Below, piece after piece: positions 1,238-24,923 of a DNA stretch of 64,000 nt (its first letter is position 1; every line of letters begins with the position of its first letter). The stretch comes from Deltaproteobacteria bacterium (lineage in GTDB: Bacteria > Myxococcota_A > UBA796 > SXON01), in the NCBI GenBank assembly GCA_947445035.1, contig CANFCK010000007.1, positions 124,001 to 188,000 of the forward strand. The letters are read 5' to 3'. Under the pieces are notes generated by a model that worked only from the letters and a program-made list of their open reading frames with translations, did no database searches and was not told where the DNA came from. Position numbers and translations under genes: made by a program.

Positions 1238-1283
1238 CCACTTCGCTCCGCGCGCGCCAACTATGCCCGAGACCGCCGTGTGG

Positions 1284-2372: not shown

Positions 2373-2395
2373 GGTCGGTGGGATAACTGCCGGCG

Positions 2396-5856: not shown

Positions 5857-5896
5857 CGGCGACTCCCGCCTGGGGGCTGCGCGCTGCGGCTAAAGT

Positions 5897-6433
5897 CTAA
5901 GGCCGAATCCCGTACGGGTCGTCGTGATGTACCGGCGGCGGCGGCGACGGCGGCGGACCGCGCGGCGGCGGCCGGGCCGAACGCCGCTTGCCGCCGAACT
6001 CGGCACGCACCAGCAATACCGCTCCGGAGGAGTTGGTGGTACCGAGGTGAAAGGCCCGAACCTCGCCGCCCAGCCGCGGCGCCCACGCCGGACCCGGAAA
6101 CAGCGCGCGGGCGTACACCCCACCCTCGCCGCCCGACAGCCCGGCCCCCACGTAGACGCCCCCGCTGGCGTTGGGATTGCCGAAGCCGAGCCCAACCTCT
6201 CCCTGGAGTAGCGCCGCAGGAACCTCCCCGCCCCGGTAGGGCGCGACGAACGCACTTGCGCTGAGCCCTACCCAGGTTTCGACGTAGGCGAAGCGCCAGT
6301 CCACGGTGCCGCCGAACATGGGCGCGCCGGAAACATACTCCCCACGGTTGGTTTCCCCGCCGATCACCCCGCCGCCCACGAAGACCCCGAAGCTCGGAGC
6401 CGCGGCGGCGACGGTGGCAAGGAACAGCAACAT
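5897..6433 (-). CDS. Secreted glycine-rich barrel-like protein
   Basis: 178 residues. The N-terminus MLLFLATVAAAAPSFG is a plausible signal peptide with cleavage after an Ala-rich stretch. The mature part alternates Gly, aromatic and small residues (VGLSASAF, GEVGLGFGNP, GVYVGAGLS), as in outer-membrane beta barrels. The end is Pro/Arg-rich. I do not recognise a family. It is convergent with the Pro-rich gene and lies 22 bp downstream of the TPR protein on the same strand, so the two may be co-transcribed. Confidence 0.65.
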   Translation of the reverse strand: MLLFLATVAAAAPSFGVFVGGGVIGGETNRGEYVSGAPMFGGTVDWRFAYVETWVGLSASAFVAPYRGGEVPAALLQGEVGLGFGNPNASGGVYVGAGLSGGEGGVYARALFPGPAWAPRLGGEVRAFHLGTTNSSGAVLLVRAEFGGKRRSARPPPRGPPPSPPPPVHHDDPYGIRP

Positions 6434-6455
6434 CCGCGACTACGATAGCTCCGGA

Positions 6456-8522
6456 TCAGCGGACCGACAGGTACCGTGCGTAGACGGGATCGGCGGCGCC
6501 CACCTGGCCGGCGCGTTTGCGGAGCTCGCTGGCCCTGGTGGCATCGCCCGCACTTTCTGCGGTACGCGCTCGCACGGCCCACCCGAGCGCGCTCTGCGCG
6601 TCGAGGGTGGTGGCCCGCTCTCCGGCCACGGCGGCCTCTGCGAGCTTGCCCGACAACCGCAGGTGTTCGGCGCTCCACGCGTTAACGTCGGCGTCGCCCG
6701 ACATCACCGGCAGGCTCGATGCAAGCAGCTTCCCCGCGGCATCCAACGCCGTCGCGTTCGGACGACCGGCGACCGCCTGCTCAGTTGCGAGCGCAAGCCA
6801 CGCCGGCACCGACCACGGCTCACGCTTGACGATGCCCTCCAACGCCGCGATGGCGACATCCGCACTTTGCCGACGCAGGGTCTCACCGAAGGCGAGAAGC
6901 GTACCGAGCGGCTGAGGGTCCGCGTCGATGCGCTGATCCATCTGCGCCGCCGCAAGCTCCGCCGAGCGCGCCGCGGTGGCGAGCATCATGCCCGCTCGGG
7001 CGCGCTTTTCTTGGGAGTAGCTGAGCTGTACCGCCTGGCGGTAGGCGGCCTCGGCCTCGGCAAGCTTGCCTTGGACGAGCAGCGCGTTGCCGGCGACCAA
7101 CGGGAGAGTGGCGTCGAGATCGGCGTATTTCGGATACAGCGTCGCAACCGCCGCCGCATCCCCCGAGGCGAGCTGGGCCTGCGCAAGCGAGGACCAGGCG
7201 AGATGGCAGGCGTTCGGCTGCGACCACACCCCGTCGAAGTCGGGACGCTTGCTCCGTTGGCCTTCATCGGCAGCGAGCTTCGTGCGTTCGGCGAGCGGAC
7301 GGGCCGCCCACGGCGAATACATTTCACCGGCCTTCTGCAAGGGCGCGCGGGCCCCGGCGGCATCACCCGCCGCCAGCAAGGCCTCACCATGAGCCAGCCA
7401 GCTGGAGCAGCGCTCCGGCGCGGCCTCGGTCAGGCGCTTCGCGACGGCCACCGCATCCGACGCCTGGCCGGTGGCGACGAGGAAATCAGACAGCGGCGAC
7501 AGAGCGCCGGCGAGTTGCGTGCGCGCGGCGTCGGGGTCGGCGCCGGCCGCGGACGGCGTGTCGACGGCCTTCCGGAGGGGGGCTTCGGCGATTTCCACGT
7601 AGGAGGCGCGCGTGAGCCCCGTGCCCGGCCGGAGCGCGAGAGTGCGGGCGCCGGCATCCAGCGCGAAGTCAAAGCCGGCAAGGGCGGACCATCCCACCCG
7701 CGCGACGGGCGCGAAGGGGTAAACCAGTCCGCTGCCCACCCGGTGGACGGGCACCCAGGTGGAGACCCCGAGTGCCGAGACCTCTCGCCACTCCACCTCG
7801 GTTTCCCCGGAGACCAGCCCATCGACCGACGGCAAGGGGTAGGCGATGTTCTCCGCCTTGCCCACTTTGAACCAGGTGGCGCCTTCGGCCTCGGTGGCGA
7901 CACGCGTTGGGCCCTCTACGGACCATTGGGCCGGAATCTCCACCCCCGACACCTTGATCGGGAGCAGCAGCGTCGAGGGGCGGAAATCCCGCTCCTCCTC
8001 GCCAATTTTGTGTTTGCGCGCCCCGGGCTGCGCGTACACGGCCGGCGCCCCGAATCCGGCACCCGGCGCACCCCCGGTCGGCGCGATCCGCGCCTTGCCG
8101 GCGGCCCCCTCGATCACCCAAGCGACCTCCGGAAACGCCGTCATGTTCACGATACCAGCGACATCGGACGCCGCGGGCGGCCGGTCACAGATAGCGCCCG
8201 GCCCGTCGATGGTGAGCGAGCCGAGCGTCAGCCCCGCCACCTTGACCGTCTGTTTCCCCTTTTCGCCCGCCGGTTTCAGACCGAGCTGGCCCGCGCCTCC
8301 TTCGGTGAAACACACGCGGTGCCCCTTGGGATCGGCCGCGCCAGTCCCCAACTGCAGGAGCACGGCCTTTTCCCCGACCTTCGCCTCGACAAACCAGCCC
8401 TCTGCCCGGGATTTGGGCGGCGCGTACAACGTCAGTTCGGACGGCCCGCTGAGCGCGGCCTTGCCCGCCGGCGTGTACTCGGCGGCGTTGACGAACGTGA
8501 CGAGCAGAAGGATGGGAAGCAT
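6456..8522 (-). CDS. Exported protein: degenerate aspartic-protease-like modules plus TPRs
   Basis: Predicted 688 residues, starting at the ATG at 8520-8522 (MLPILLLVTFVNAAEY, a signal peptide). About residues 15-330 look like two retropepsin-type modules: KVGEKAVLLQLGTGA followed by a VAGLTLGSLTIDG strand, then IKVSGVEIPAQWSVEG followed by GFDFALDAGARTLALRPG. In neither is the catalytic Asp-Thr-Gly intact at the expected site (GTGA in the first). From about 340 to the end are Ala-rich helical repeats of TPR type (AAVATLYPKYADLDATLPLV, AEAAYRQAVQLSY). Probably a periplasmic scaffold. Function unknown. Confidence 0.78.
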   Translation of the reverse strand: MLPILLLVTFVNAAEYTPAGKAALSGPSELTLYAPPKSRAEGWFVEAKVGEKAVLLQLGTGAADPKGHRVCFTEGGAGQLGLKPAGEKGKQTVKVAGLTLGSLTIDGPGAICDRPPAASDVAGIVNMTAFPEVAWVIEGAAGKARIAPTGGAPGAGFGAPAVYAQPGARKHKIGEEERDFRPSTLLLPIKVSGVEIPAQWSVEGPTRVATEAEGATWFKVGKAENIAYPLPSVDGLVSGETEVEWREVSALGVSTWVPVHRVGSGLVYPFAPVARVGWSALAGFDFALDAGARTLALRPGTGLTRASYVEIAEAPLRKAVDTPSAAGADPDAARTQLAGALSPLSDFLVATGQASDAVAVAKRLTEAAPERCSSWLAHGEALLAAGDAAGARAPLQKAGEMYSPWAARPLAERTKLAADEGQRSKRPDFDGVWSQPNACHLAWSSLAQAQLASGDAAAVATLYPKYADLDATLPLVAGNALLVQGKLAEAEAAYRQAVQLSYSQEKRARAGMMLATAARSAELAAAQMDQRIDADPQPLGTLLAFGETLRRQSADVAIAALEGIVKREPWSVPAWLALATEQAVAGRPNATALDAAGKLLASSLPVMSGDADVNAWSAEHLRLSGKLAEAAVAGERATTLDAQSALGWAVRARTAESAGDATRASELRKRAGQVGAADPVYARYLSVR

Positions 8523-8580
8523 CAGGACCCCGGGCTCGGAAGCCCACGACGGTATCCCGTAAAACCGCGACCATCCATAG

Positions 8581-9951
<1,371 letters not shown>

Positions 9952-9953
9952 AT

Positions 9954-10472
9954 ATGGTACTGTCCCCGGCGCGGGAGGCGTGGATGGTGTTCTTGTTCCT
10001 CGGTGGCTGTGCGACGTTGGGTCTCGACGACCCCTTCAACAGCAACAGCGGTCGCTACGACCAACCCAACTGGGCGACGGCCGACACCGCCGACGGGGAC
10101 ACCGGCGATACCGCCGATGGCGACGGCGACGCCGGCGCGCCAGTGCTCACCAACCTTGTGCTGGCGTGGACCGACTATCCGAACATCGGTACGGTGCTAG
10201 AGTTCACCGCGGACTACACCGATGAAGGCGACGACATCGTCGGCGGCACCTGCTACATCGACCTGTTCAACGGATCCGACTATATCGGGGACTTCTTATA
10301 CGAGGTCGTCGATGATCCGGGCGGCGAAAGCGAGGTATGCTCCGCGGTCGGCGGCACGCTCCAGTTTGCGTTCCAAGAGCTCGACGACACCCAAACCGGG
10401 TCGATCGGACTCGAGGTGCAGGACGGCTCCGGCAACGTGTCCGCGACCTACAAAGTCAGCACCCTCGACTGA
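9954..10472 (+). CDS. Lipoprotein with Asp/Thr-rich linker
   Basis: 172 residues. A short N-terminus ends in the lipobox FLGGC (Cys at about 19 from the ATG at 9954). A starting point much closer to the Cys would leave no signal peptide. After the lipidated Cys comes a linker of repeated Asp-Thr-Ala/Gly units (TADTADGDTGDTADGDGD), a spacer seen in other surface proteins of this window. The compact C-terminal domain of about 115 residues has two Cys (GGTCYIDLF and SEVCSAVGG) and beta-strand character. No family recognised. It begins 2 bp after the eno stop. Confidence 0.72.
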   Translation: MVLSPAREAWMVFLFLGGCATLGLDDPFNSNSGRYDQPNWATADTADGDTGDTADGDGDAGAPVLTNLVLAWTDYPNIGTVLEFTADYTDEGDDIVGGTCYIDLFNGSDYIGDFLYEVVDDPGGESEVCSAVGGTLQFAFQELDDTQTGSIGLEVQDGSGNVSATYKVSTLD

Positions 10473-10588
10473 TTCGTCCGGGTAGGCGCGCCAACGCGGG
10501 CGTGCTTACGTCCGCTGCGAATTCTCCAACCCGGTGTTGAGGGTTCCCCCTCGGGGCGGCTACTCTCCACCACCCCGCCGAGGCGTCT

Positions 10589-11995
10589 TTGCGCATCCTG
10601 CTGATCAACCCGTCGATGAACATGCAGAAGCTCGGCCGTTTTGCCGACCTGCTCGAGCCCATGCCCCCCACCGGCATCGCGTACATCGCGGGGGCGCTGG
10701 TGGCCAAAGGCTGGCACACCCGATTTGTCGATATGTTCGCCGAGAAGTTGACGGCCAAGGGCGTGCTGGAAAAGGTCGTCCGCTTCCAGCCCGACCTCGT
10801 GGGCATGACCGTGCTGACGCCGAGCGCCCCGACATGTGAGCTGCTTTCGCAGATGATCAAGGCGGTTTCTCCCAAGACGAAGATCGTCTGGGGCGGGGTC
10901 CATGCCGACGTCTTCGCCAAGGACATCATCCGCGACGGAGCGGTCGACTTCGTGGTGCACCACGACGGCGAGACGACGATCTGCGAGCTGGTCGAGGCCC
11001 TCGACGGCGGCACCAAGGACCTCAGCGGCATCGACGGTCTTTCGTGGATGGACGATGGTTCACCCAGGACCAACAAGGAGCGCGCGCTGCTCCGCGATCT
11101 CGACTCGTTGGCCTACCCGGCGTGGGACCTTTTCCCGTACCACCGCTACGGCCTGTTGCCCTTCGCTGACGTGGACAAGCCGGTGCTGACCATGACCGGT
11201 TCGCGCGGTTGCCCCTATCGCTGCGACTACTGCTCGCTCCTTCACAGCGGCAAGGTCTATCGACGTCGCGACCCAATCAAGCTCGTAGACGAGTACCAGC
11301 ACCTGGTCGAGCGCTTCGGCGTTCGCCAGGTTGGCCTGGTCGACCCGATCTTCCCGTTGGTGCTCAAGGACCTCAAGCCCTTCTGCGAAGAGCTCGTCGC
11401 CCGCAAGCTCGACCAGAAGGCGGTGTGGCTGAGTGAGACGCGCGCCGACCGCTTGGACGAGGAGACCTGTCGCGTCATGTACGCCGGCGGCTGTCGCCGG
11501 GTGCTCATGGGCATCGAGAGCGGCGTGGACATGTTGCTCGGCAATGTGAACAAGAACCTCACGACCGAAAAGGTCCGCTGGGGCGTGGCCAATGCCAAAA
11601 AGGCCGGCATCCAGACCGTCGGCCTGTTCATGATCGGCATGCCAGGCGAAACCCCGGAGATGACGCGCGAGACCATCGAGTTTGCCGTCGACCTCGATCT
11701 GGACTTCGCCAAGTTTGCGATCACCGTGCCCTTTCCTGGAAGCAAGCTGTTCGAGGACCAGTGGCAGAAGACACTTTTCCGCGACGACTGGGAAAACTAC
11801 ACGACGTTCAACCCCGACGCCGACCGCCTGGTCTACCACCCCCAAGGCTACGACCCCGAGTTGCTCATCAAGATGCAGGCCTACGGACTGCGGCGCTTCT
11901 ACATGCGCTTCGATCAGGTCAAACGCCAGCTTGTAGAGCTTAAGACCATCAACCCCAAGATGATGCTCTACGGCATCTACGGGATGGCGATCTAG
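10589..11995 (+). CDS. B12-binding radical SAM protein
   Basis: 468 residues. An N-terminal Rossmann-like cobalamin-binding domain (about 1-140; IAYIAGALVAKGWHTRFVD, IVWGGVHADVF) precedes a radical SAM barrel with CPYRCDYC (Cys208, Cys212, Cys215). GGCRRVLMGIESG and GLFMIGMPGETPEMT are typical barrel strands. Such enzymes methylate or rearrange unactivated carbons in lipids, hopanoids or natural products; the substrate is unknown here. The start is a TTG with GAGG 5-6 nt upstream. It is convergent with the HAD phosphatase, 6 bp apart. A second enzyme of this class is at 15.6-17.2 kb. Confidence 0.9.
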   Translation: MRILLINPSMNMQKLGRFADLLEPMPPTGIAYIAGALVAKGWHTRFVDMFAEKLTAKGVLEKVVRFQPDLVGMTVLTPSAPTCELLSQMIKAVSPKTKIVWGGVHADVFAKDIIRDGAVDFVVHHDGETTICELVEALDGGTKDLSGIDGLSWMDDGSPRTNKERALLRDLDSLAYPAWDLFPYHRYGLLPFADVDKPVLTMTGSRGCPYRCDYCSLLHSGKVYRRRDPIKLVDEYQHLVERFGVRQVGLVDPIFPLVLKDLKPFCEELVARKLDQKAVWLSETRADRLDEETCRVMYAGGCRRVLMGIESGVDMLLGNVNKNLTTEKVRWGVANAKKAGIQTVGLFMIGMPGETPEMTRETIEFAVDLDLDFAKFAITVPFPGSKLFEDQWQKTLFRDDWENYTTFNPDADRLVYHPQGYDPELLIKMQAYGLRRFYMRFDQVKRQLVELKTINPKMMLYGIYGMAI

Positions 11996-12001
11996 CCGAC
12001 G

Positions 12002-12655
12002 CTAGCGGCCCCAGTCGAGGATCGGCCAACCTCGTTTGGCGGCGACGCGACGCAACCTTGGGTCGGGATTGACCGCGACGGGCTGGCCCACCGCCTCCAG
12101 CATGGGCAGGTCGCTCATCGAGTCGGTGTAGAACGTGGCTTCTGAAAGCAAGCCACCGACACGCTCGCAGAAGGCCTGGGCGTGCTCGACCTTACCCGCG
12201 CCGTAGCACATGGCGCCCAGTGGACGACCCGTGAAGCGGCCCTCCTCGACCTCGAATCGATTGCACAGCGCGTGCTCGAGCTCCAACCGCCGCAGCACCG
12301 GCGCGCACAGGTACGCCGACGAGGTCGTCAGCAGGGTGATGGTGTCGCCCGCCTCCCGGTGGCGCTCTACAGCCTCGAGCGCGCCTGGGCGGTAGGTCCG
12401 GTCGATCTGGGCGGTGTAGAACGCCTCGGTGCGGCGTACGAGGTCGATTTCCAGCGTTCCGCCCAGGGTCTCAATGGCCTCCTCCAGCAGGGATTCCATC
12501 CGCGTGAAACCGATGTGGTAGGTCCCGATCCACCAGATCGCGCGCAGCGCTTGCCAACGGGTGAGGAAGCCCTGCTTGACCTCGTGATCCACCCAGAGCC
12601 GGCCGGAGTTGACCGAGAGGACCGTTCGGTCGAGATCGAAGAAGACCAGTGCCAC
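12002..12655 (-). CDS. HAD superfamily IB phosphatase
   Basis: Predicted 217 residues from the GTG at 12655. Motif I FFDLDRTVLS supplies the Asp nucleophile and the acid Asp at residues 7 and 9. Motif II is LLTTSSAYL. Motif III/IV is YTDSMSDLPML, with two metal-binding Asp. Subfamily IB contains SerB-like phosphoserine phosphatases and lysophospholipid or sugar phosphatases. The substrate cannot be read from the sequence. It follows the MscS gene by 10 bp on the same strand, so the two are probably co-transcribed. Confidence 0.87.
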   Translation of the reverse strand: MALVFFDLDRTVLSVNSGRLWVDHEVKQGFLTRWQALRAIWWIGTYHIGFTRMESLLEEAIETLGGTLEIDLVRRTEAFYTAQIDRTYRPGALEAVERHREAGDTITLLTTSSAYLCAPVLRRLELEHALCNRFEVEEGRFTGRPLGAMCYGAGKVEHAQAFCERVGGLLSEATFYTDSMSDLPMLEAVGQPVAVNPDPRLRRVAAKRGWPILDWGR

Positions 12656-12665
12656 GCCGCGCAGC

Positions 12666-14192
12666 CTACCCCGCCAATCCGAAGAACTCTCGCATTCGTG
12701 CCAGTATCCGCGCAGTCTCCCGGCTCCGGTCGGACCCGAGCCGCGCGTCGTGCCCCTCCCGGGCCACCGAAAGCTGGGCTTGGCGCTTGGCCGTGACCGC
12801 TGCAAGCTCGCCTGCGACATGGGGACGGGAGAGGAGCACCGCTTCGAACCCCTCGTGGTCGAGCTTGAAGCACTCCACGGGACCTACGGCGACGACGCCG
12901 GCCGTGCGCGGGGCACCGGTCAATAGCCCCATCTCGCCAAATATATCAGGCGCCCGAAGGGTGGCTACGCGTTGCTCGCTGCCATTAACTTCCAGGCGGA
13001 CCTCGACCGTGCCCGCCGCAAGAATGTAGAGATGACGCGCCGCACGCCCTTGCCGGATGACGTATTCTCCACCGGCAAACGGCACGAACTGCAGGGCGCC
13101 GGCAAGCTGGCGGCACTCCGCCTCGGTGAGTGGACCGAAGAGGTCCACGCCGCGCATGACCTGGTAGGCCCGCTCCCGGTCGGGGACCGGCAGGCCCGTC
13201 CTGGCCTCGTTGTCCAGGTTGATGTGCGTCGTCGCCGGGGTCGCCAACTCGATTCCCGCCCGACAGAGCGCCGCATGAACGCGAACCCGCACCTCGGAAT
13301 CGACCACGAAATCGCGCTCGAAGTCGTGAGTCCACACCCGCACCGCATACAGGAGGCTGCTGTCGAGCACCTCCTTTCCGAGATCGGCAAGCAGACAGTC
13401 GGGGGCAGGTTCCGGCACCGTGCCGCGGATGGGGCTGGCGTCGAGCGCATCTTGCACCACCCCCAGGATGTGGCCCGGGTTGTGCTTCCGATCGAGGCGG
13501 AAGTACACGGTCCGGCGCTCCGGATGTCCCACCCCACCCCTTCGACCGAGAATGGTGATGGCCGTCGTGAGCAGTGATGCATTTGGCACCATGACCGCGT
13601 TGCCGTCGCGCGTCTCGACGACGAGGTGCCGCCAGCGAATCGCCGCCACCCGCCCCTCCCGACCACCCTCAAGTTGCACCCAATCGCCCACCTGCACAGT
13701 ACCGTCGAGCTGGAGCGCGACGCCGCCGATGACGTTGCCCCGCGTGCTCTGGAGCGAGATCGTGAGCGCGGCAGCGACGATCGTGCCGCCCGCGAGCGCC
13801 GATGTCGCGGTCAAGCCGGTACTGGCCGCAACCGCGACGACCACCACGCCAAAACCGAGGGCGGAGAGGACGTCGCCCGCGATTGCCGGAAGACGCACGC
13901 CGAGCCGCGGCAAGAGCACATCGACCCCGCCCAGGACCACCAGCGTGGTCGCGCAGAAGCCGGCCGACACCCTGGCCAGGAAGTCAATCCAGGTCATCGC
14001 CGGGGTGTACTCCAGCACCCGCGCCAGCATCAAGACGCCCGCGAGCCCGACGTAGAGCACGTAGAGGAGCACCGGGGTGCGCAGCCGCCCGCGACGAGCC
14101 GGCGCCAGGACGTTGACGACGACGGCCCCAACCAGCAGGCACACGCCCATCGCAAGGACGCTGAACGCGAGGTCTCGAAGTTCCAGAGTCAC
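12666..14192 (-). CDS. MscS-family mechanosensitive channel with cNMP-binding domain
   Basis: 508 residues, GTG start. About four N-terminal membrane helices (to about 150) lead into the MscS beta domain: SLQSTRGNVIGGVALQLDG, VQVGDWVQLEGGREGRV, MVPNASLLTTAITILG. The C-terminal 150 residues (FGPLTEAECRQLAGALQF ... PDIFGEMGLLTGAPRTAGV) form a cyclic-nucleotide-binding fold. Fusion of an MscS pore to a cNMP domain is known in bacterial cyclic-nucleotide-gated MscS-like channels. It sits in the inner membrane. Whether it responds to cAMP, to c-di-nucleotides or only to osmotic stress is unknown. Confidence 0.9.
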   Translation of the reverse strand: MTLELRDLAFSVLAMGVCLLVGAVVVNVLAPARRGRLRTPVLLYVLYVGLAGVLMLARVLEYTPAMTWIDFLARVSAGFCATTLVVLGGVDVLLPRLGVRLPAIAGDVLSALGFGVVVVAVAASTGLTATSALAGGTIVAAALTISLQSTRGNVIGGVALQLDGTVQVGDWVQLEGGREGRVAAIRWRHLVVETRDGNAVMVPNASLLTTAITILGRRGGVGHPERRTVYFRLDRKHNPGHILGVVQDALDASPIRGTVPEPAPDCLLADLGKEVLDSSLLYAVRVWTHDFERDFVVDSEVRVRVHAALCRAGIELATPATTHINLDNEARTGLPVPDRERAYQVMRGVDLFGPLTEAECRQLAGALQFVPFAGGEYVIRQGRAARHLYILAAGTVEVRLEVNGSEQRVATLRAPDIFGEMGLLTGAPRTAGVVAVGPVECFKLDHEGFEAVLLSRPHVAGELAAVTAKRQAQLSVAREGHDARLGSDRSRETARILARMREFFGLAG

Positions 14193-14238
14193 ACCTGAGC
14201 TTAGCGCAGCGCCGGCACGGAGGCTGGCGCGCGGAAGC

Positions 14239-15537
14239 TCAGCGCACCCGCGTCACCCCAGGAAGCTCGGCCACGCGAACCACGTAGGGGATCGCAGCGG
14301 CCAACGACGTCTGTAGCTCCCAACGCAGCTCGCCATCCGGCCCGATGTCGTCGATGACGCCGGCGTAGGAGAAAACCGCGAGGGTGCTGCCGTCGGCCGC
14401 GCGGTCCACATCGCCGAGCGTCACGATCGACAGCGGAGGGTCGTGGTGCCAGGACCACGCTGCCGTCGCGCTCATCGCTATGTCGTCCAGCTTCAACTCC
14501 AACACCCGCGAGTCCTCGCCCGAGGCCGGATCGCGATCGTCCATCATCACGACCCCGCCGTCGATGAACTGGAACTGGTGTTGGAACTTGGGCTGGTCGG
14601 CCGGATCGGCAAAGCTCCACGCGCTGTCCGGACCGCCCAGCCTGCGTCCGACCGAGCCATCCTCAAAGACCTCGACCAGCCCACCGAGATTCCGCATTCC
14701 GACCCACCAGCCCCCACCCGCACGGACATCGAGTGCGTTGACGTGGGCCCACGTGTTGCCGTCGAGCTCGCTGTCGTCAGGCACCTCCCAGGTGTCCCAC
14801 GTGGACCAGATTGGCGTGGCGTTGCCTTCGTTGTCGACCCGCACCACGGCGTCGCCGACCACGTCCGCGCCGGAGCGGCCGGGGCGAACATCGGTGACCA
14901 GGCAGATACTGTCCCCTTCTGGGGTGTCCACGAAGTCGTGGTTGAACTGGTCGACTTGATGGCGGGACAGCTCGGTGCCGTCCCAGTTCACGGTGACCAG
15001 CGCCGACGTCTCGGTGACGGGGGCCGCCTCGATCTCCGCGAAGCGCAGGCCCTGACCGTCCTCGCGCAGCCGCGTTCTGAGCACCCGGTGCCGCCCCTGC
15101 GCCTTCTTGTACCAGACGACACGCCCCCACTCATCCAGGATCAACGCCCAACCCGGCTCGGCGACCACCCCGGTGAGCAGGTAGCCCTCCCACCCCGGTG
15201 TTCCGCTGGTCGTCCAACTGGGCATTCCGGTCGGCGCCGTGCCGGTCTCGAAGTCCACGTACACGCTGCTGTCACCCGCCTCCGAAACGACCCGCGCACT
15301 CCACTTCCCGCCCGCCCACAGGCCCAGGAGCGGCGCCGAATGCGCGAGTTCCGCGCCCTGCCAGTCGGTTGTGAGAAATGGGCCGTCTTCGCCGTTCACC
15401 TCCACGCGGGTCCGCTCGTTCGTGCTGCTCGACCAGGTCGCGACGGCCAATGTTGCGACGTCGTCATCGAGGGTGATCGTCGGCGGGGAGACGCCGCAGC
15501 CGGAGAGGATCAGGCCGGCGGCGACGATGCCCCCCAA
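14239..15537 (-). CDS. Lipoprotein of the arylsulfotransferase (ASST-like) fold
   Basis: 432 residues if started at the TTG at 15535-15537, which has GGAGGG 7 nt upstream. The N-terminus is a signal with lipobox LILSGC. The rest has the pattern of Arylsulfotran_2 proteins: GWALILDEWGRVVWY, FNHDFVDTPEGDSICLV, HVNALDVRAGGGWWVGMRN, KFQHQFQFIDGG, MMDDRDPASGEDSRVLEL, a six-bladed propeller probably facing the periplasm or surface. An alternative GTG at 15637-15639 overlaps the upstream stop codon and would add an Arg-rich 34-residue leader. It is the last gene of the minus-strand peptide operon. Sulfotransferase activity is not shown. Confidence 0.75.
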   Translation of the reverse strand: MGGIVAAGLILSGCGVSPPTITLDDDVATLAVATWSSSTNERTRVEVNGEDGPFLTTDWQGAELAHSAPLLGLWAGGKWSARVVSEAGDSSVYVDFETGTAPTGMPSWTTSGTPGWEGYLLTGVVAEPGWALILDEWGRVVWYKKAQGRHRVLRTRLREDGQGLRFAEIEAAPVTETSALVTVNWDGTELSRHQVDQFNHDFVDTPEGDSICLVTDVRPGRSGADVVGDAVVRVDNEGNATPIWSTWDTWEVPDDSELDGNTWAHVNALDVRAGGGWWVGMRNLGGLVEVFEDGSVGRRLGGPDSAWSFADPADQPKFQHQFQFIDGGVVMMDDRDPASGEDSRVLELKLDDIAMSATAAWSWHHDPPLSIVTLGDVDRAADGSTLAVFSYAGVIDDIGPDGELRWELQTSLAAAIPYVVRVAELPGVTRVR

Positions 15538-15569
15538 AACGCATGCCCTCCGGGGGCATTTTGGGGGGC
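15529..15569 (-). promoter_or_regulatory. Strong hairpin over a ribosome-binding site and start codon
   Basis: An inverted repeat pairs GCCCCCCAAAA with TTTTGGGGGGC, then TGCCC with GGGCA after a 4-nt bulge, leaving a 5-nt loop. On the minus-strand mRNA it covers the GGAGGG and the TTG start of the ASST-like lipoprotein. No U-tract follows, so it is not a standard terminator. In the 101-bp gap after the radical SAM gene it could lower or gate translation of the lipoprotein. If translation begins at the upstream GTG, the hairpin would lie inside the reading frame. Confidence 0.55.
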
Positions 15570-15638
15570 CTACAGCGGGCCGCGCCCAGCGTCGCCGTCG
15601 GCGGCGCGCCGCCGAGGCCGAGGGGGATGGGGCAGGCA

Positions 15639-17171
15639 CTACGTATCGTACCACTCTGGCTGGACCAGTTGCTGGTAGTGCTCGACATTGAGTGGGTTCA
15701 CCCTCTTCTTTACCGCATCCAGCGCCATCAGCGCCGAGACCTTGGTGAACCAGATGTACATGTCGCGCTTGTAGGGCACCCTGCTGGTGAGGCCGCGGAG
15801 GAGCCACTTGTTGTTCACGAACTGCTTGTTCATGTCGTAGAGCGCCTGCCCGATCTCGTCCTTGGTCATGTACTGGCTGTCCAGCACTGGACTGAGCCAG
15901 TCGAAGTTGTCGAAGTCGGCCTCGGTGATCCAGCCTTCGCGCAGCGCTTCGTCATAGATCGGCGTACCCGGCACCGGGGTGATCGGGTGAAAAGCGGGGA
16001 AATCGACGTCCAACTCCTTGGCCATTTGGACCTGCTTCTTCAAGGACTCGTTGTTTTCCTCTTTGACGCCGACGATGAACGTCGCCTGCACGAAGACGTG
16101 CGGGTACTTCGTCTTGAAGATCTCGATCGCCTGGCGGGCGATGCCGCCTGCGTAGAAGCGCTTGTCCAGCGACGAGAGCGAGTCGTCCTCCGCACGCTCA
16201 ACCCCGATGAGGATGTGGGCCATGCCCGCCTTCACAAGGCGCTCGAGGATGCCCTTCTTCTCGTCGCGAACGATGCAATCGGCGCGCATGAACGCGAACC
16301 ACTGCGTCTTCATCCCACTCTTGATCATGCGCCCGGCGAACTCATCGTTGAAGCGCGGATCGATGTTCCAGCTTTCGTCGACCCAAACATACGAGCGCTT
16401 GCCGTAGCGGTAGTACAGCTCCTCGATCTCCTCCATGACGCGATCGACGCTCTTGGAGCGCCAACGCGGCGTAAGCTGGACGTTTCCGTCGCTGTCGTAC
16501 TTGCGGTCCGCCATGACGGTCCACCACGCGCAGAAGCTACAACTCGACACGCAGCCGCGGCTGTGGTGAATCGTCGTGCCACCCGGCGAGAAGAGGTAGC
16601 GACTTTTCCCGTAGAGGTGCATCGGGAGCATGTCGTACGCGGGCATGGGCAAGGTATCGAGGTCCTTCACCAGCTTTCGGGTGTTGGTGCGCACCTGGGC
16701 CGCGCCGTCCCAGTACATCAGCCCGTCCACCTTGGCGAGGTCCTTGCCGGCGTGCGCCCAGGCCTTGCAGGTGTCGACGATGGTTTCTTCGCCCTCGCCA
16801 ATGCAGATCGCGTCGATGTTGCTGGCGGGGTTGGCGTAGCGGTGGGCGAGGTTGGTGAAGTGTCCACCGCCGGCGAGCGTCTTGGCGCGTGGGGCCACAT
16901 CCTTGCACATCTTGAAGAACCGGAGCGCTTCGCTGGCGTAGAGCGCGTGGTTTTCCCCGCTGGCGATCACGTCGGGATCGAGCTCCTTGATGCGATCGGC
17001 GAGCGAGCGCCAGCCGATGTGGAGCGGCATGCAGTCCAAGACGTGTACGTCCATGCCCGCCTCGCGCAGCGGCGCAGCGAGCGCCGGAAGCGCCTGTTGC
17101 AACAGGAAATTGTCGCCCTCGCTGGTGTAGGGCCAATACTTTCGAGGGGGCTGGACGAGGAGCACGCGCAT
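15639..17171 (-). CDS. B12-binding radical SAM protein of the peptide operon
   Basis: 510 residues from the ATG at 17169-17171 (MRVLLVQPPRKYW). A cobalamin-binding Rossmann domain (about 1-150; AGMDVHVLDCMPLHI, KTLAGGGHFTNLA, AICIGEGEETI) is followed by a radical SAM barrel with CVSSCSFC (Cys207, Cys211, Cys214), VWVDESWNIDPRF and HILIGVERAEDDSL. It starts 10 bp after the methyltransferase stop and third in line after the repeat peptide. Enzymes of this class do C-methylations and cyclisations on lipids, antibiotics and some peptides. The substrate is unknown. The peptide neighbour makes a peptide substrate possible, not certain. Confidence 0.9.
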   Translation of the reverse strand: MRVLLVQPPRKYWPYTSEGDNFLLQQALPALAAPLREAGMDVHVLDCMPLHIGWRSLADRIKELDPDVIASGENHALYASEALRFFKMCKDVAPRAKTLAGGGHFTNLAHRYANPASNIDAICIGEGEETIVDTCKAWAHAGKDLAKVDGLMYWDGAAQVRTNTRKLVKDLDTLPMPAYDMLPMHLYGKSRYLFSPGGTTIHHSRGCVSSCSFCAWWTVMADRKYDSDGNVQLTPRWRSKSVDRVMEEIEELYYRYGKRSYVWVDESWNIDPRFNDEFAGRMIKSGMKTQWFAFMRADCIVRDEKKGILERLVKAGMAHILIGVERAEDDSLSSLDKRFYAGGIARQAIEIFKTKYPHVFVQATFIVGVKEENNESLKKQVQMAKELDVDFPAFHPITPVPGTPIYDEALREGWITEADFDNFDWLSPVLDSQYMTKDEIGQALYDMNKQFVNNKWLLRGLTSRVPYKRDMYIWFTKVSALMALDAVKKRVNPLNVEHYQQLVQPEWYDT

Positions 17172-17181
17172 GGGTCCGACC

Positions 17182-18009
17182 TTAGCTGCCCCGTTCGCCG
17201 GCTGCGCGGCCAGTTTGGGATTCGGTGGGCGGGCCCGCATGGGCCACCCCAATCCAGGCTCGATTGAGCTGCCCCAGCACCGAATGCCCACGAAGCCGGT
17301 CCTCCCACGCAAAAAGCGCGTCGGCATCGACATCGCCCGCCAACTGCTGCAACGGCCCGCTCAGCACGTAGTGGCTGCGCTCGAGCGTTGGCAGCGCCCA
17401 GCCCTGGAAAAGCGCTCGCACATCGACTTCATCGAAGGTCCGGACGTATCGATCGCCAGGAATATGCAGGACCCCGTCCTCCAGGAGCGCGCCGAGGTGC
17501 CCAGCCGGCGCATCCAGCGCCATCCCCCAGCCCCACCTGGCTTCCACCGAGAAGAGCAGCGCCCCGCCCGGCACAAGCCGCGGCCGCAGCCCCGCGAGCA
17601 CGGCGCCAGCGTCGTGGACGTAGCACAGGAGCTCAGCCGCGATGACGACGTCGGCCTGCACGGGAGGCAGCTCCTCCGCCGTCGTGTGGTAGGTCGTGAG
17701 CGTGCCTGGCCGCCCCTGCGCGTGGCCGCGCGCGACCTCCAGCGAGATGGCATCGGCATCGACCAGATGAACGTCGCAGCCCAGGTCGAGGCACCACATC
17801 GAGAACCGACCGATGCCGCCGCCAATGTCGAGCACGCGACAGCCCGGGCGCACATGCGGCGCCCACAGGCGGAGGTAGAGCTCGCGCTCGAGCAGCTTGT
17901 GGCGATGAGCAGGGCTGTCGGGACGGAGAAAATCCATCCACTCCGGCGTGGTGACCCACGCCTCGGCGGCACCCACCATATTTGCAGTCGCTGGCGACCC
18001 GTCTTTCAT
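17182..18009 (-). CDS. Class I SAM-dependent methyltransferase
   Basis: 275 residues. Motif I VLDIGGGIGRFSMWCLDLG (about 59-77) binds SAM. The acidic residue VHLVDADA, the VVIAAELLCYVHDAG strand and LRPRLVPGGALLFSVEA follow in order. The C-terminal third (RYVRTFDEVDVRALFQGWAL) is substrate-specific. The ATG at 18007-18009 follows the repeat-peptide stop by 19 bp with no strong ribosome-binding site; a second Met is at residue 11. It is sandwiched between the peptide and a B12 radical SAM enzyme on one strand. Acceptor unknown. Confidence 0.88.
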   Translation of the reverse strand: MKDGSPATANMVGAAEAWVTTPEWMDFLRPDSPAHRHKLLERELYLRLWAPHVRPGCRVLDIGGGIGRFSMWCLDLGCDVHLVDADAISLEVARGHAQGRPGTLTTYHTTAEELPPVQADVVIAAELLCYVHDAGAVLAGLRPRLVPGGALLFSVEARWGWGMALDAPAGHLGALLEDGVLHIPGDRYVRTFDEVDVRALFQGWALPTLERSHYVLSGPLQQLAGDVDADALFAWEDRLRGHSVLGQLNRAWIGVAHAGPPTESQTGRAAGERGS

Positions 18010-18028
18010 GCGACGGGACCGGCGCCGA

Positions 18029-18154
18029 CTACGCCTTCGGTCCCGGCTTCGGGCGGGGAGAAGGGCGCCAGGCCTTGGGGCCCGGCTTCGGACGTGGCGA
18101 AGGACGCCAGCTCTTGGGGCCGGGCTTGGGACGGGGGGACGGACGCCAATTCAT
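18029..18154 (-). CDS. 41-residue basic peptide: three WRPSPRPKPGPK repeats
   Basis: Small gene of 42 codons: Met-Asn, then three 13-residue units WRPSPRPKPGPK plus Ser or Ala, then TAG. GGAG lies 5 nt before the ATG (18152-18154) and a promoter-like element lies further up. The three units differ at nine codons, all at third positions without changing the amino acid. Only the last codon (AGC, GCC, GCG) alters a residue. That pattern means the peptide sequence is under selection, and on this strand. It has no acidic residue, no signal peptide and no Cys. Possible roles: precursor of a modified peptide, Pro-rich antimicrobial peptide, or nucleic-acid or ribosome binder (SPRPK resembles minor-groove motifs). 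No family is recognised. Confidence 0.75.
   Translation of the reverse strand: MNWRPSPRPKPGPKSWRPSPRPKPGPKAWRPSPRPKPGPKA
18032..18148 (-). repeat. Tandem 39-bp repeat, three units
   Basis: Three directly adjacent 39-bp units (18148-18110, 18109-18071, 18070-18032) encode the WRPSPRPKPGPK repeats. Apart from the final codon, the units diverge at codon third positions only. There are no spacers, so this is not a CRISPR array. It most likely arose by internal duplication of a coding unit, later polished by purifying selection. Confidence 0.85.
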
Positions 18155-18183
18155 GGAAGCTCCAAAGGTGCTGCGAGGTTCCC

Positions 18184-18212
18184 ATCGTTCCCCGGTTGAC
18201 CCGGGGTGTCAA
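18184..18212 (-). promoter_or_regulatory. Sigma70-like promoter of the peptide operon
   Basis: On the minus strand TTGACA (18212-18207) is followed after 17 bp by AACGAT (18189-18184), about 30 bp before the peptide ATG. The -35 is a perfect match; the -10 keeps three of six consensus bases, including A2 and T6. Within the spacer lies CCCCGG-N5-CCGGGG, an operator-like inverted repeat. TTGAC-N7-GTCAA (18196-18212) also forms an inverted repeat. The short leader would be about 20-25 nt. Confidence 0.5.
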
Positions 18213-18242
18213 GCGAAAGTGCCGACCCGGGAGCCATGGGCT

Positions 18243-18270
18243 GCGATAACCGCGGGCCGCGATAACCGCG
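18243..18270 (+). repeat. Direct repeat GCGATAACCGCG x2 before the gluzincin start
   Basis: The 12-mer GCGATAACCGCG occurs at 18243-18254 and 18259-18270, period 16 bp, ending 3 bp before the ATG of the metalloprotease. Each copy carries an internal GCG/CGC dyad. The position suggests a regulator site in the 119-bp divergent region between the peptide operon and the protease, or a translational element in the leader. No conventional ribosome-binding site is visible in front of the ATG. Confidence 0.4.
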
Positions 18271-18273
18271 CGG

Positions 18274-21200
18274 ATGTTGTTCTGGCTCGCGTTCGCCTTC
18301 GCCCCCCCCGCGCTGCCCACAGGCGCACCCGTCGTGCATCTGGCGCGGACGCCGGCCGTGCAGTGGCGCCTCGCCTCGTCGCAAGCGGCGCAGGGATTCG
18401 CCGCGGCGTGGGGCGACCCCTGGATTCGCTGGGACGAGCGCACCGGGTCGCCACGTTTCCTCGGTCTGAGCGGACTCCCGGAGGTGCTCGCCGATGAGCT
18501 GGTGGCCGACGTCGCGACGCTGTCCGGCATCGAGCCCGGCGAGCTGACGCTGGCCGACAGCCAGAGCCACGCCTTTGGCCAGGGCGAGCGCACCACCCTC
18601 CGTTACACCCGTCGTTTCGGCGGCGTGCAGGTCGTCGACGACGAAGTGCAGCTGGTTGTCACGGATGGGCGCATCGGCGCCGCGTGGGTGCTCCTGACGC
18701 CGACGCGAGGCGTGCCGACGCCGCGAGCCGGCGAGGTGGTCGTCGCCGACCCCAAGCGCGGCTACGGCCGCCTCGTCCGCGTGAGCCGCACCCCCACCTC
18801 TGTTCGGGCGGTTGACCGCGCCGGCGACGAGGTCTACGCGTACGATCCACGCGCCTTCGACTCCGTCACCGTCACCCACGAAGAGTTCACCGTCGACGAC
18901 GCGCTGGTCACCAATCCCGCGCGCGAGGTCACGGTCACCGACGCCGCCGGCACCAGCGAAGTGACCGCCGCCGACGGCAGCCACACCCTCACCGGCGACC
19001 TGACCGTCGAGCTGGACGGGACCACCCTGACGCTGCTCCAAGACGGGGCCAGCATCAGCCACAGCGGCAGCGACGACATCGACCTGGACGCGGGGGATGA
19101 CCTCTCGTATTCGGCGGCAGACACCCTCCACCACTTCTACCAGGTGTGGGACTGGCTCGGCGACCGTTGGCCCACCCACTCCTGGCTGAGCGATCGGGTA
19201 CGCGCCAACGTCGACGTGAGCTCGGGCGCGTGCAACGCCTACTACACCGGAGGAACCATAACTTTTTTCGCTTCCTACGATGTATGCAACGCCACCGGAC
19301 GCATCGCAAGCGTGATCTACCACGAGGTCGGCCACGGCATCCACGAGTACATCCTTGGCGGCGGGACCTTCGCCAGCGACGTCTCCGAGGGCAGTGCCGA
19401 CTACATCTCCGCGACAATCCTAGATAATGCTACGATCGGCGAGGGCTTCTACACCGACGGCTCGGGCATCCGCGAGCTGGACACCGACCGCGTCTACCCG
19501 ACTGACGTCATCAACGAGCCCCACAACGACGGCCTGATCTGGGCCAGCTTCCTCTGGGACCTGCGCGAAACCTGGCGAGTCACCTACGGCGAAGACGTAG
19601 GCATCGCGATGAGCGACGCCATCCTGCTCGGCTCGCTGGAGCAGGGCCCCGGCCTCACCGACCTGCTCGAAGCGGTGCTGGTCGCCGACGACGACGACGG
19701 CGACTGGTCCAACGGCACTCCCCACGACTGCGAGCTCATCGCGCTTTTGGCGGTGCACGGCCTCGCGGCCGACTCGATGGGCGTCTATGCCGTCAGTCAC
19801 ACGCCGCTGGGAGCACAGGGCTCCGAGACCGTGGGCTACCCGGTGTCCCTCGACCTTCAAGCCGGGTTCGAGACCTGCACTGGCGTGCCCACGCCAACAC
19901 CCTCGGTCTGGTACACCAACGACATGGCGGCGCCGCTCCCCGCCGCCGACGGCACGGGCGCCGCAGCTTGGACGATGGAGCCGATGACGACCGCGGACGA
20001 CGTCACGTGGACGGCAACCCTCCCGCGCGTCCCGGCCACCGACGGCTTCCGCTATTTCTACGTGCTGACGTCGTCGGACGGCACGATGTCCGATACCTCG
20101 CACGGCGGCTTGGAGCAGGGGGTTTGGGAGTTCCACGTCGGCGACCGCGCCGAGCTGTGGTGCGACGACTTCGAGTCCGGTGCGCCGGGCTTCACCCACG
20201 GTGCGGGAATCCCGATGGAGAGCGCGAGTGGCACCACGGACGAGTGGGTGTTTGGGAGCCCGGTGGGCGGCGGTCGTTTCGATCCCGACCTGGCCTACGG
20301 CGGCGCCAACATCGCCACCACCGTGCTCGACGAGGACTACAGCGCCAACAACGCCCAGTACCTCTCGACCCCAACCGTGGATCTGACGACCCCGGGCCGG
20401 ATGCGTCTCTTCACCTACCAGCGTTGGCTGTCGGTGGAGGATGGGCTCTACGATCACGCCCGCGTCTACGTTTCGGACGGGGCGACCAACACGGCGCTCT
20501 GGGAAAACGCGATGACCCCGGGGGGCAGCACCCAGCTCATCGACACCGACTGGTCCACCATCGATCACGACCTGGCTGGTCTCTTGGACGCCGATGGCGT
20601 GGCCGCGGCGCCGCTCAACTTCTCGTTCACCCTCCAGAGCGACGCGGGCCTTGAGTTCGGCGGCTGGGCGCTCGACGACGTCTGCGTCATCGAACTGGAC
20701 GACGTCCCCGACCACTACCGACGAGTTGCGCTCACGACGAGCTGGACCGACCTCGGCGAGTCGGAAGTGGGCGCCGTCGACGTCACATGGCACACGCCGT
20801 GGATCCGGCCGCTCTCGTTGACGGTGCTCGTCCGGCAGGAGGGTCGCGCCCCCGAGTCGCTTACCGACGGCGTGATCCTCGACCTGGACCTCTCCCCCGT
20901 CTTCGGCGAGGAGAAGCACGTCATCGACCTCCTTCCCGGTCTGGACCGCGGGACGACCTGGACCTACGCGCTCTTCGCCGCGGGTGAAGACGACGCCGAG
21001 CAGTACCTGACCGCGGTCGACGGCCAGAACGCCGCGACCGTCAGCTTCGACATCCGCGACACCGCCGAGCCCATCGACACCGGGGAGACGGGCGACACCG
21101 CCGACACCGCCGACACCGGCAGCGACTCGGACACCGACATCGCCGGTGACACCGATACGGGCGATGTCACCGAGCCGGGCGGCTGCGGCTGCGAGACGAC

Positions 21201-21321
21201 GGGCTCGGGCGCGACGGCTGCACTTGGGGTGGCCCTGGGGATGGTCGTGAGTGGGCGGCGGCGCAAGTCCGTCGTTGGCGACAGCGCTCAGCGCAACTGG
21301 GCCGGGCGCGTCTGGACGTAG
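18274..21321 (+). CDS. Secreted gluzincin metalloprotease with MYXO-CTERM-like tail
   Basis: 1015 residues. Signal peptide at 1-15 (MLFWLAFAFAPPALP). The zinc site is HEVGH (His350-His354) with Glu372 in SEGSADY as third ligand, the gluzincin layout of fungalysin/thermolysin-like enzymes. The 300 residues before it look like a propeptide. After the catalytic domain come beta-rich regions (about 600-900). The C-terminus has a Thr/Asp-rich linker, a GCGC motif, a hydrophobic helix and RRRK, the layout of the MYXO-CTERM surface-sorting signal, but with about 17 extra residues after the basic cluster. Probably surface-anchored or released by sorting. Confidence 0.88.
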   Translation: MLFWLAFAFAPPALPTGAPVVHLARTPAVQWRLASSQAAQGFAAAWGDPWIRWDERTGSPRFLGLSGLPEVLADELVADVATLSGIEPGELTLADSQSHAFGQGERTTLRYTRRFGGVQVVDDEVQLVVTDGRIGAAWVLLTPTRGVPTPRAGEVVVADPKRGYGRLVRVSRTPTSVRAVDRAGDEVYAYDPRAFDSVTVTHEEFTVDDALVTNPAREVTVTDAAGTSEVTAADGSHTLTGDLTVELDGTTLTLLQDGASISHSGSDDIDLDAGDDLSYSAADTLHHFYQVWDWLGDRWPTHSWLSDRVRANVDVSSGACNAYYTGGTITFFASYDVCNATGRIASVIYHEVGHGIHEYILGGGTFASDVSEGSADYISATILDNATIGEGFYTDGSGIRELDTDRVYPTDVINEPHNDGLIWASFLWDLRETWRVTYGEDVGIAMSDAILLGSLEQGPGLTDLLEAVLVADDDDGDWSNGTPHDCELIALLAVHGLAADSMGVYAVSHTPLGAQGSETVGYPVSLDLQAGFETCTGVPTPTPSVWYTNDMAAPLPAADGTGAAAWTMEPMTTADDVTWTATLPRVPATDGFRYFYVLTSSDGTMSDTSHGGLEQGVWEFHVGDRAELWCDDFESGAPGFTHGAGIPMESASGTTDEWVFGSPVGGGRFDPDLAYGGANIATTVLDEDYSANNAQYLSTPTVDLTTPGRMRLFTYQRWLSVEDGLYDHARVYVSDGATNTALWENAMTPGGSTQLIDTDWSTIDHDLAGLLDADGVAAAPLNFSFTLQSDAGLEFGGWALDDVCVIELDDVPDHYRRVALTTSWTDLGESEVGAVDVTWHTPWIRPLSLTVLVRQEGRAPESLTDGVILDLDLSPVFGEEKHVIDLLPGLDRGTTWTYALFAAGEDDAEQYLTAVDGQNAATVSFDIRDTAEPIDTGETGDTADTADTGSDSDTDIAGDTDTGDVTEPGGCGCETTGSGATAALGVALGMVVSGRRRKSVVGDSAQRNWAGRVWT

Positions 21322-22233: not shown

Positions 22234-24923
<2,690 letters not shown>

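Follow-up and report, generated by a model that had tools for sequence, protein, structure and literature searches.

A tandem-repeat reading frame and its neighbours

Within the 64,000-nucleotide stretch of DNA analysed here (the window), a reading frame of 41 codons, built of Met-Asn and three 13-residue units, raises two questions: is so short and repetitive a frame a gene and, if it is, what kind of molecule does it supply? The preliminary description had placed it on the minus strand with a GGAG ribosome-binding site, an ATG and a stop codon, and its coordinates, strand and parts are all confirmed. The 39-bp array was found independently by TRF (score 148). Ten of the 13 codons differ among the three units, nine of them by silent third-position changes and the tenth by an exchange of Ser and Ala, as had been described for the last codon. 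The frame and the genes considered below are as follows.

18029 to 18154, minus strand: ORF of the 41-aa peptide, composed of Met-Asn and three 13-residue units WRPSPRPKPGPK[S/A], stop codon TAG (ORF and orthologues)
18160 to 18163, minus strand: GGAG Shine-Dalgarno (SD) sequence, 5 bases before the ATG (sequence)
18110 to 18148, minus strand: unit 1, WRPSPRPKPGPKS (codon alignment)
18071 to 18109, minus strand: unit 2, WRPSPRPKPGPKA (codon alignment)
18032 to 18070, minus strand: unit 3, WRPSPRPKPGPKA (codon alignment)
17182 to 18009, minus strand: class I SAM-dependent methyltransferase, ORF of 275 aa, 19 bases downstream of the stop codon of the peptide (Pfam Methyltransf_12/23/11/25 above gathering score)
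15639 to 17171, minus strand: rSAM-A, B12-binding radical SAM protein, 510 aa, 10 bases after the methyltransferase ORF (Pfam B12-binding and Radical_SAM)
14239 to 15807, minus strand: arylsulfotransferase-like (PF05935) ORF after rSAM-A (Pfam; true start uncertain, the listed ORF overlaps rSAM-A)
10589 to 11995, plus strand: rSAM-C, second B12-binding radical SAM protein, 468 aa, started by TTG, about 6 kb away from the peptide (Pfam B12-binding and Radical_SAM)

Conservation, selection and strand

A translated search recovered the 41-aa ORF at 93–100% identity in 12 of 38 genomes, its own included; these are all 11 sampled genomes of the window's genus and one genome (G013) of another genus. 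All 12 orthologues are 126 bases long and without internal stops, and their pairwise differences fall 115, 74 and 1035 times on codon positions 1, 2 and 3, respectively, giving a pN/pS of 0.0785. A search for the unit in relatives and a selection analysis across orthologues had been proposed as checks on the claim that this is a selected peptide conserved across copies. The claim stands on both, with strong purifying selection and no change of length among the 12, and on the recurrence of a one-unit form in other genera and phyla, described below.

Comparison of all six frames over the same orthologues shows residue differences of 4.4% for the peptide's own frame, 17.5% for the antisense frame that pairs third positions with third positions, and 36–43% for the other four. 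The preliminary description had held that neither a non-coding repeat nor the opposite strand would show the observed bias, which is somewhat too strong for the opposite strand: the third-on-third antisense frame is open (ORF 17982 to 18497, plus strand) and keeps many of its residues. A plus-strand gene is nevertheless ruled out by the gap between 4.4% and 17.5%, and chance or a non-coding repeat by the orthologues together with the frame comparison. The strand is settled because the relatives include one-unit forms that start just behind an SD-like sequence and stop after 15–25 codons, and the idea that the array is non-coding, or that the plus-strand frame is the gene, is for practical purposes already refuted.

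A family of one-unit peptides

Judged by its sequence relatives, the conserved object is the single unit and not the triple repeat. Other genera of the order carry one unit, preceded by GGAG or something close to it; examples are MNWRPSPRPKPGPKA-stop, as in G012, ...GPKK-stop and ...GPKKPR-stop, and a first look found this form, 15–17 aa long, in 15 genomes beyond the 12 with the 41-aa form. The collected set comprises 64 ORFs (51 distinct sequences) from 62 genomes in three phylum-level groups; each genome contributed one or two loci, selected by the expression WRP[SATN] with PxP, RRP or PSRP behind it. Single-unit peptides of 15–25 aa account for 52 and the 41-aa form for 12, so that the unit numbers seen are one or three. 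The starts picked by script are 62 ATG and two TTG, and an SD-like sequence precedes 62 of the 64, the exceptions being in G003 and G005. The peptides have net charges of +2 to +13, consist of 29–44% Pro, and have no Cys; Tyr occurs in one of the 64. Between two and six residues, Met included, precede the Trp. The picking expression itself makes the W, the R, the P and the Pro next to them partly invariant; it does not impose Pro at W+8 (63/64) or at W+10 (57/64).

The type had been described as an unrecognised one, and no Pfam or NCBIfam model fits the 41-aa form meaningfully, the sole match being a low-complexity one to an NCBIfam TonB family (E 0.37). The strings WRPSPRP, WRPSPKP, WRPAPKP, RPSPRPKPGP and PSPRPKPGPK are absent from the open-access main texts searched, and the motif is absent from the titles and abstract openings returned by literature searches.

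Co-occurrence with two radical SAM families

A search with rSAM-A of 377 genomes of the phylum matched 59 at E 1e-80. In a quick tree, which contains several long branches among paralogues, the rSAM-A proteins of peptide-bearing genomes form one clade, clade A (60 rows, support 99), with a sister clade B of 11 rows. Partial matches from G010, G040 and G237 are not part of the tree and were assigned to clade A on the strength of their identity (89, 56 and 48%), and G244 and G259 (36–37% identity) were counted as clade B without the tree. On this basis clade-A rSAM-A occurs in 56 of the 377 genomes, rSAM-C in 55, and both in 53; the genome sets used for co-occurrence were compiled by hand from the match tables of the two enzymes. 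Mapped onto the rSAM-A tree, the three-unit state requires two changes, with G013 standing apart from the window's genus; a single three-unit clade is not rejected (p-AU 0.175).

All searches together place the peptide in 54 of the 56 rSAM-A genomes. The two that yielded none are G033, where the contig ends just beyond the methyltransferase, and G145. The peptide is also present in G258 and G259, where rSAM-C was found and no clade-A enzyme was detected. The search effort was higher in rSAM-A genomes, so fair comparisons come from two uniform scans only; 54/56 against 14/321 would set unequal efforts against each other and is not used as an odds ratio.

In the first uniform scan one SD-plus-motif pattern was run on all 377 genomes and every match was translated. 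Among the 58 genomes that contain rSAM-A, rSAM-C or both, 45 have an ATG-started, Shine-Dalgarno-preceded WRP[SAT]PxP ORF; among the 319 others the number is 0 (Fisher p 7e-47, which is indicative only, the genomes being related). A true family peptide is found in 44 of these 45 (44/58), the match in G326 being a different frame of 90 aa. With GTG and TTG starts allowed, the counts are 46/58 and 2/319 (G061 and G318, the latter in family f3). Eleven of the 13 enzyme genomes missed by the pattern have a peptide found through other searches and two have no known peptide; misses arose from the lack of an exact GGAG, from a TTG start, or from a variant such as MIWRPSRRP. The other uniform scan matched 37 of 56 rSAM-A genomes, including G040, whose matching stretch was afterwards attributed to chance, against 14 of 321, among which only G370 reads WRPSPRP. 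Family f3, which belongs to the same order, has neither rSAM-A nor rSAM-C at the cut-offs, nor an ATG-started match, in any of its 21 genomes. Co-occurrence of peptide and enzymes tracks phylogeny, and the genomes are therefore not independent.

The association was put to a predictive test: rSAM-A proteins of about 50% identity were first located in other classes, as well as in two more phylum-level groups, and the peptide was then found nearby. In families f16 and f12, whose rSAM-A proteins are 49–50% identical, a relaxed search gave new peptides (e.g. MHSWRPAPKPSPRPVPKPRP and MENWRPNPKPSPRPAPKPGMPKPFA) 0.2–4.8 kb away. All seven genomes of a second phylum match rSAM-A at E 1e-85, six of them with a clade-A copy in the tree, and five of these six have the peptide, in G387 on another contig. 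This phylum, that of the fen_1099 MAGs, would be FEN-1099, listed with 7 genomes as Ca. Podoxiota (PMC11382960). Of 247 genomes in a third phylum-level group, two (G399 and G424) match at E 1e-95; G399 has a clade-A enzyme with MRFPQWRPSPRPKPKE 1.1 kb away, and G424 has a clade-B enzyme and no peptide recognisable with the one pattern scanned. Family f7 was negative with the first patterns; an SD-anchored pattern then matched all 6 of its genomes (M[NQ]WRPAP[IV]PKP...), and it also found the peptide in two of three f36 genomes.

Clade B behaves differently from clade A: a family peptide lies near one of 11 clade-B loci (L237), several clade-B genomes carry the peptide elsewhere, and the clade-B-only genomes G046, G386 and G424 (the last scanned with one pattern) have none that is recognisable. 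G378 carries two different family peptides (loci L235 and L237), one by rSAM-A and one by a relative of rSAM-C with a clade-B enzyme nearby.

A number of candidates were set aside. A pattern scan of genome contigs gave 41 stretches, 35 of which were judged on reading to be family members; the matches at L051, L058, L064, L070, L073 and L083 were judged to be chance, as were a candidate in G190, the TTG-started MRWRPAPRPKPCAPPMAGR in G040 (where an ATG copy was later found), and MPWRPSPKPRPEPCACKSGPAP in G380, a genome with no rSAM-A relative at E 1e-30 and no clear SD sequence before the stretch. The second stretch in G326 is the 90-aa frame and not a family peptide. A candidate in G424 has no in-frame start codon nearby, and the other six matches in that genome do not read WRP[SATN].

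Gene order around the peptide

Homologues of the methyltransferase and of rSAM-A accompany the peptide in most of the relatives compared. A methyltransferase homologue lies within 300 bp of 43 of the 64 peptides (33 on the same strand, 10 on the opposite strand), rSAM-A within 7 kb of 40 and rSAM-C within 8 kb of 25; some of the unlinked peptides lie where the sequence read was short or at the end of a contig (G003 and G010). rSAM-C emerged from the neighbourhood comparison, lying 3.4–7.9 kb away in several genomes of the window's family. It sits between the methyltransferase and rSAM-A in G378, G384 and G388 and right behind rSAM-A in four f16 genomes, and in four f7 genomes it directly precedes the peptide, which follows after 81–153 bases.

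The association holds independently of strand and place. In several genomes the peptide is divergent from the methyltransferase and rSAM-A genes. In f40 it is elsewhere in the genome, directly upstream of PRPP synthetase and class V aminotransferase genes; at the f40 loci L239 (G259) and L240 (G237) the rSAM genes are on other contigs, and the PRPP synthetase and aminotransferase profiles were checked in L240. Peptide and rSAM-A are on different contigs in about 18 genomes, in six of which the methyltransferase still adjoins the peptide and in two of which the contig ends.

These arrangements bear on whether the frame might be a cis-acting leader ORF, in which stalling on a Pro-rich stretch controls the downstream methyltransferase and radical SAM genes. 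Pro-rich stretches slow ribosomes, and in the window the peptide ends 19 bases before the methyltransferase ORF. Against such control, 10 of the 43 peptides close to a methyltransferase are encoded on the opposite strand, and the peptide has other neighbours in f40, f36 and two of the f7 genomes. A cis-acting leader, to which we give hardly any credence, is largely refuted by these divergent and dispersed copies.

Other neighbours vary. Among the loci compared, full-length matches to the arylsulfotransferase-like protein occur only in the window, L031, L032, L049 and L050, and its gene is probably an optional neighbour; L049 and L050 have a second such gene between the methyltransferase and rSAM-A. 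A divergent gene at window positions 18274–21321 (plus strand) encodes a weakly M36-like metallopeptidase, below the Pfam gathering score, with a MYXO-CTERM end, and it also flanks the cassette in several members of the window's genus. The flanks of L043 are housekeeping genes (RuvA, DUF192 and LpxC), and so are those at L035, which encode, at a distance of 3–6 kb, an FtsX-like protein, an ABC ATPase judged by eye to be FtsE-like and an M23 peptidase. No dedicated exporter or leader peptidase was recognised in the neighbouring ORF lists, read by eye with six ORFs scanned.

Two loci are rich in radical SAM genes. At L279 (G399), positions 706–13736, a 16-aa peptide is surrounded by a methyltransferase and by eight radical SAM ORFs, which were assigned through NCBIfam or through their resemblance to rSAM-A, and a weakly wax-ester-synthase-like ORF (13763–15145) follows the radical SAM group. 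At L161 (G063, f16), positions 502–8254, five consecutive radical SAM ORFs, rSAM-A and rSAM-C included, follow a peptide of 22–23 aa; G063 belongs to a Myxococcota family far from the window's.

The enzyme families

Both the B12-binding and the Radical_SAM domains score above the gathering score, which places the enzymes in the B12 radical SAM superfamily, and the CX3CX2C motif of rSAM-A is present in all 57 clade-A sequences examined. An AlphaFold2 model of rSAM-A (pLDDT 84.6) has its best PDB fold match in AprD4, followed by CysS, MgmA, OxsB and TokK. The model thus predicts a B12 radical SAM fold, which cannot alone tell methylation from other chemistry.

None of the enzymes reaches an NCBIfam cut-off, neither the methyltransferase nor, among the curated families, rSAM-A or rSAM-C. 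The best profiles for the two radical SAM proteins are BchE (TIGR02026; 181.2 bits for rSAM-A and 222.4 for rSAM-C, cut-off 481.35) and HpnJ (TIGR03471; 108.3 and 166.3 bits, cut-off 577.6). The RiPP C-methyltransferase family TIGR03975 (80.3 and 114.6 bits, cut-off 281.85) and ApyD score lower. TIGR04428, the Trp 2-C-methyltransferase, gives 56.7 bits for rSAM-C (cut-off 500) and is not among the 25 families listed for rSAM-A. An RRE (PqqD-like) domain is absent from the Pfam matches of rSAM-A, the methyltransferase and rSAM-C; not all RiPPs use an RRE.

A candidate precursor

The preliminary description had floated an antimicrobial, a precursor or a nucleic-acid binder. The company of genes points to a precursor, because two B12 radical SAM families share the distribution of the peptide and because one of them, with the methyltransferase, shares its gene order in many genomes; a short precursor gene associated with modification enzymes is also what characterises a RiPP. 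The explanation that we favour, and consider likely, is that the ORF encodes a trans-acting ribosomal precursor, with no separate leader, on which rSAM-A and rSAM-C act, joined in many lineages by the methyltransferase. Several observations count against a precursor: the separation of peptide and rSAM-A on different contigs, which is unusual for a RiPP; the genomes G258 and G259, with peptide and rSAM-C and no detected clade-A enzyme; G033 and G145, which gave no peptide; the family peptide near the clade-B locus L237; the absence of an RRE match in the partners scanned and of a recognised exporter or leader peptidase in the neighbour lists read; and the best profiles of both enzymes, since BchE and HpnJ act on small molecules or lipids and not on peptides.

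The last of these, together with co-occurrence that lacks strict adjacency and conservation of the whole X-Pro stretch instead of one residue, would suit an unmodified small partner, which docks on, activates or scaffolds rSAM-A, rSAM-C or the methyltransferase, or serves as a carrier peptide, while the enzymes act elsewhere. The tripling of the unit as a block, and the surrounding of a 16-aa peptide by up to eight radical SAM ORFs in G399 and the presence of five in G063, look instead like a multi-core substrate, and we regard such a partner as unlikely.

Were the peptide a precursor, the ribosome would make a chain of 15–25 aa without a real leader, to be modified by rSAM-A and rSAM-C and, where present, by the methyltransferase. 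Our best guess is that the Trp-Arg-Pro head is the likely site of reaction, and the alternating X-Pro, Lys/Arg-rich tail is likely to be the recognition handle. Plausibly, the radical enzymes would C-methylate or oxidise Trp, Arg or Pro, and N- or O-methylation would be added. The tripled unit of the window's genus would deliver three cores from one translation event.

The charge and Pro content given above, and the presence of Trp, may also suggest the Pro-rich antimicrobial peptides of insects and mammals, which kill bacteria through the ribosome, and a secreted or intracellular Pro/Arg-rich peptide acting as such was kept as an alternative. It is improbable: no signal peptide is visible by eye, the sequence is nearly frozen across classes, unlike antibiotics, and the peptide is tied to radical SAM genes. 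The peptide is probably the starting material for a modified peptide or cofactor not described so far, and the product is more likely to be a cofactor or another housekeeping molecule than an exported antibiotic. Only tentatively would we go as far as a new peptide-derived cofactor that serves core physiology in Myxococcota and in two or more further phyla, made by two B12 radical SAM enzymes, and often a methyltransferase, from a precursor of about 15 residues, among the smallest conserved ones known, with a Trp-Arg-Pro head and an X-Pro tail; this stronger form is possible and somewhat doubtful.

Comparison with known systems

Among the closest parallels are PQQ (PqqA) and mycofactocin (MftA), redox cofactors that derive from peptides through radical SAM maturation and likewise combine a very short, strictly conserved precursor, a radical SAM partner and co-occurrence across phyla, the last with mycofactocin as the precedent (PMC3023750). 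PqqA carries conserved Glu and Tyr, and PqqE is a SPASM protein; the peptides described here have no conserved Tyr, and no PqqE or SPASM family match was found. The two enzymes differ from those of both systems in being B12-binding and in having no SPASM or PqqD match, the unit differs in consisting of Trp-Arg-Pro and X-Pro repeats, and a methyltransferase is added. The mycofactocin precursor is reported to end in Cys-Gly-Val-Tyr (PMC3023750), an end that the window family lacks, there being no Cys in any of the 64 peptides. As Haft presented that case, strict conservation of a very small peptide and its link to radical SAM genes pointed to a cofactor precursor, and the argument rested partly on absent transporters and immunity genes (PMC3023750). 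It applies in part to the Trp-Arg-Pro peptide, because this too is a tiny conserved peptide tied to radical SAM genes.

Biarylitides, e.g. myxarylin, are reported to have the smallest RiPP precursors (PMC12951456). They resemble the present family in a tiny precursor with almost no leader, in the SAM methyltransferase of the myxarylin cluster and in having myxobacterial members, and differ in a five-residue precursor and a P450 cross-link, with no radical SAM enzyme in the pathway as described there. For B12 radical SAM enzymes, PoyC is reported to methylate a Val of a precursor peptide and TsrM to act on free Trp (PMC5682303), and Mmp10 to methylate an Arg of McrA (PMC5943407). These three share the B12-binding and radical SAM architecture and CX3CX2C, and set a precedent for methylating Trp, Val and Arg; rSAM-A and rSAM-C differ in falling below the TIGR03975 and TIGR04428 cut-offs. 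Likeness to BchE and HpnJ lies in their being the best NCBIfam profiles (BchE 181 and 222 bits), and the difference from BchE in scores far below its 481-bit cut-off. In repeat-core RiPPs such as TvgA the repeated core suggests a repeated identical change (PMC9062424), as the tripled unit might; TvgA differs in its SPASM-type radical SAM enzyme, and the Trp-Arg-Pro peptide in showing one or three units.

Tiny precursors, maturation by B12 radical SAM enzymes and repeated cores are each known; their combination, with this motif and distribution, did not appear in our searches and, as far as sequence comparison goes, seems to be new. The peptide family has no model in Pfam or NCBIfam. The two enzyme families are recognised only by general Pfam domains and reach no NCBIfam cut-off, and their link to the peptide is testable. 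Genes of 15–25 codons are often missed in annotation, which is why such families can hide. To our knowledge, many B12 radical SAM enzymes have no known substrate. A candidate substrate of 15 residues can be synthesised, so that these enzymes are directly testable.

Other repeats in the window

Two further repeats were observed. A 16-bp direct repeat, GGGCCGCGATAACCGC, occurs in two copies at 18238–18270, in the divergent intergenic region, and a 207-bp tandem repeat of 2.7 copies occupies positions 23326–23893.
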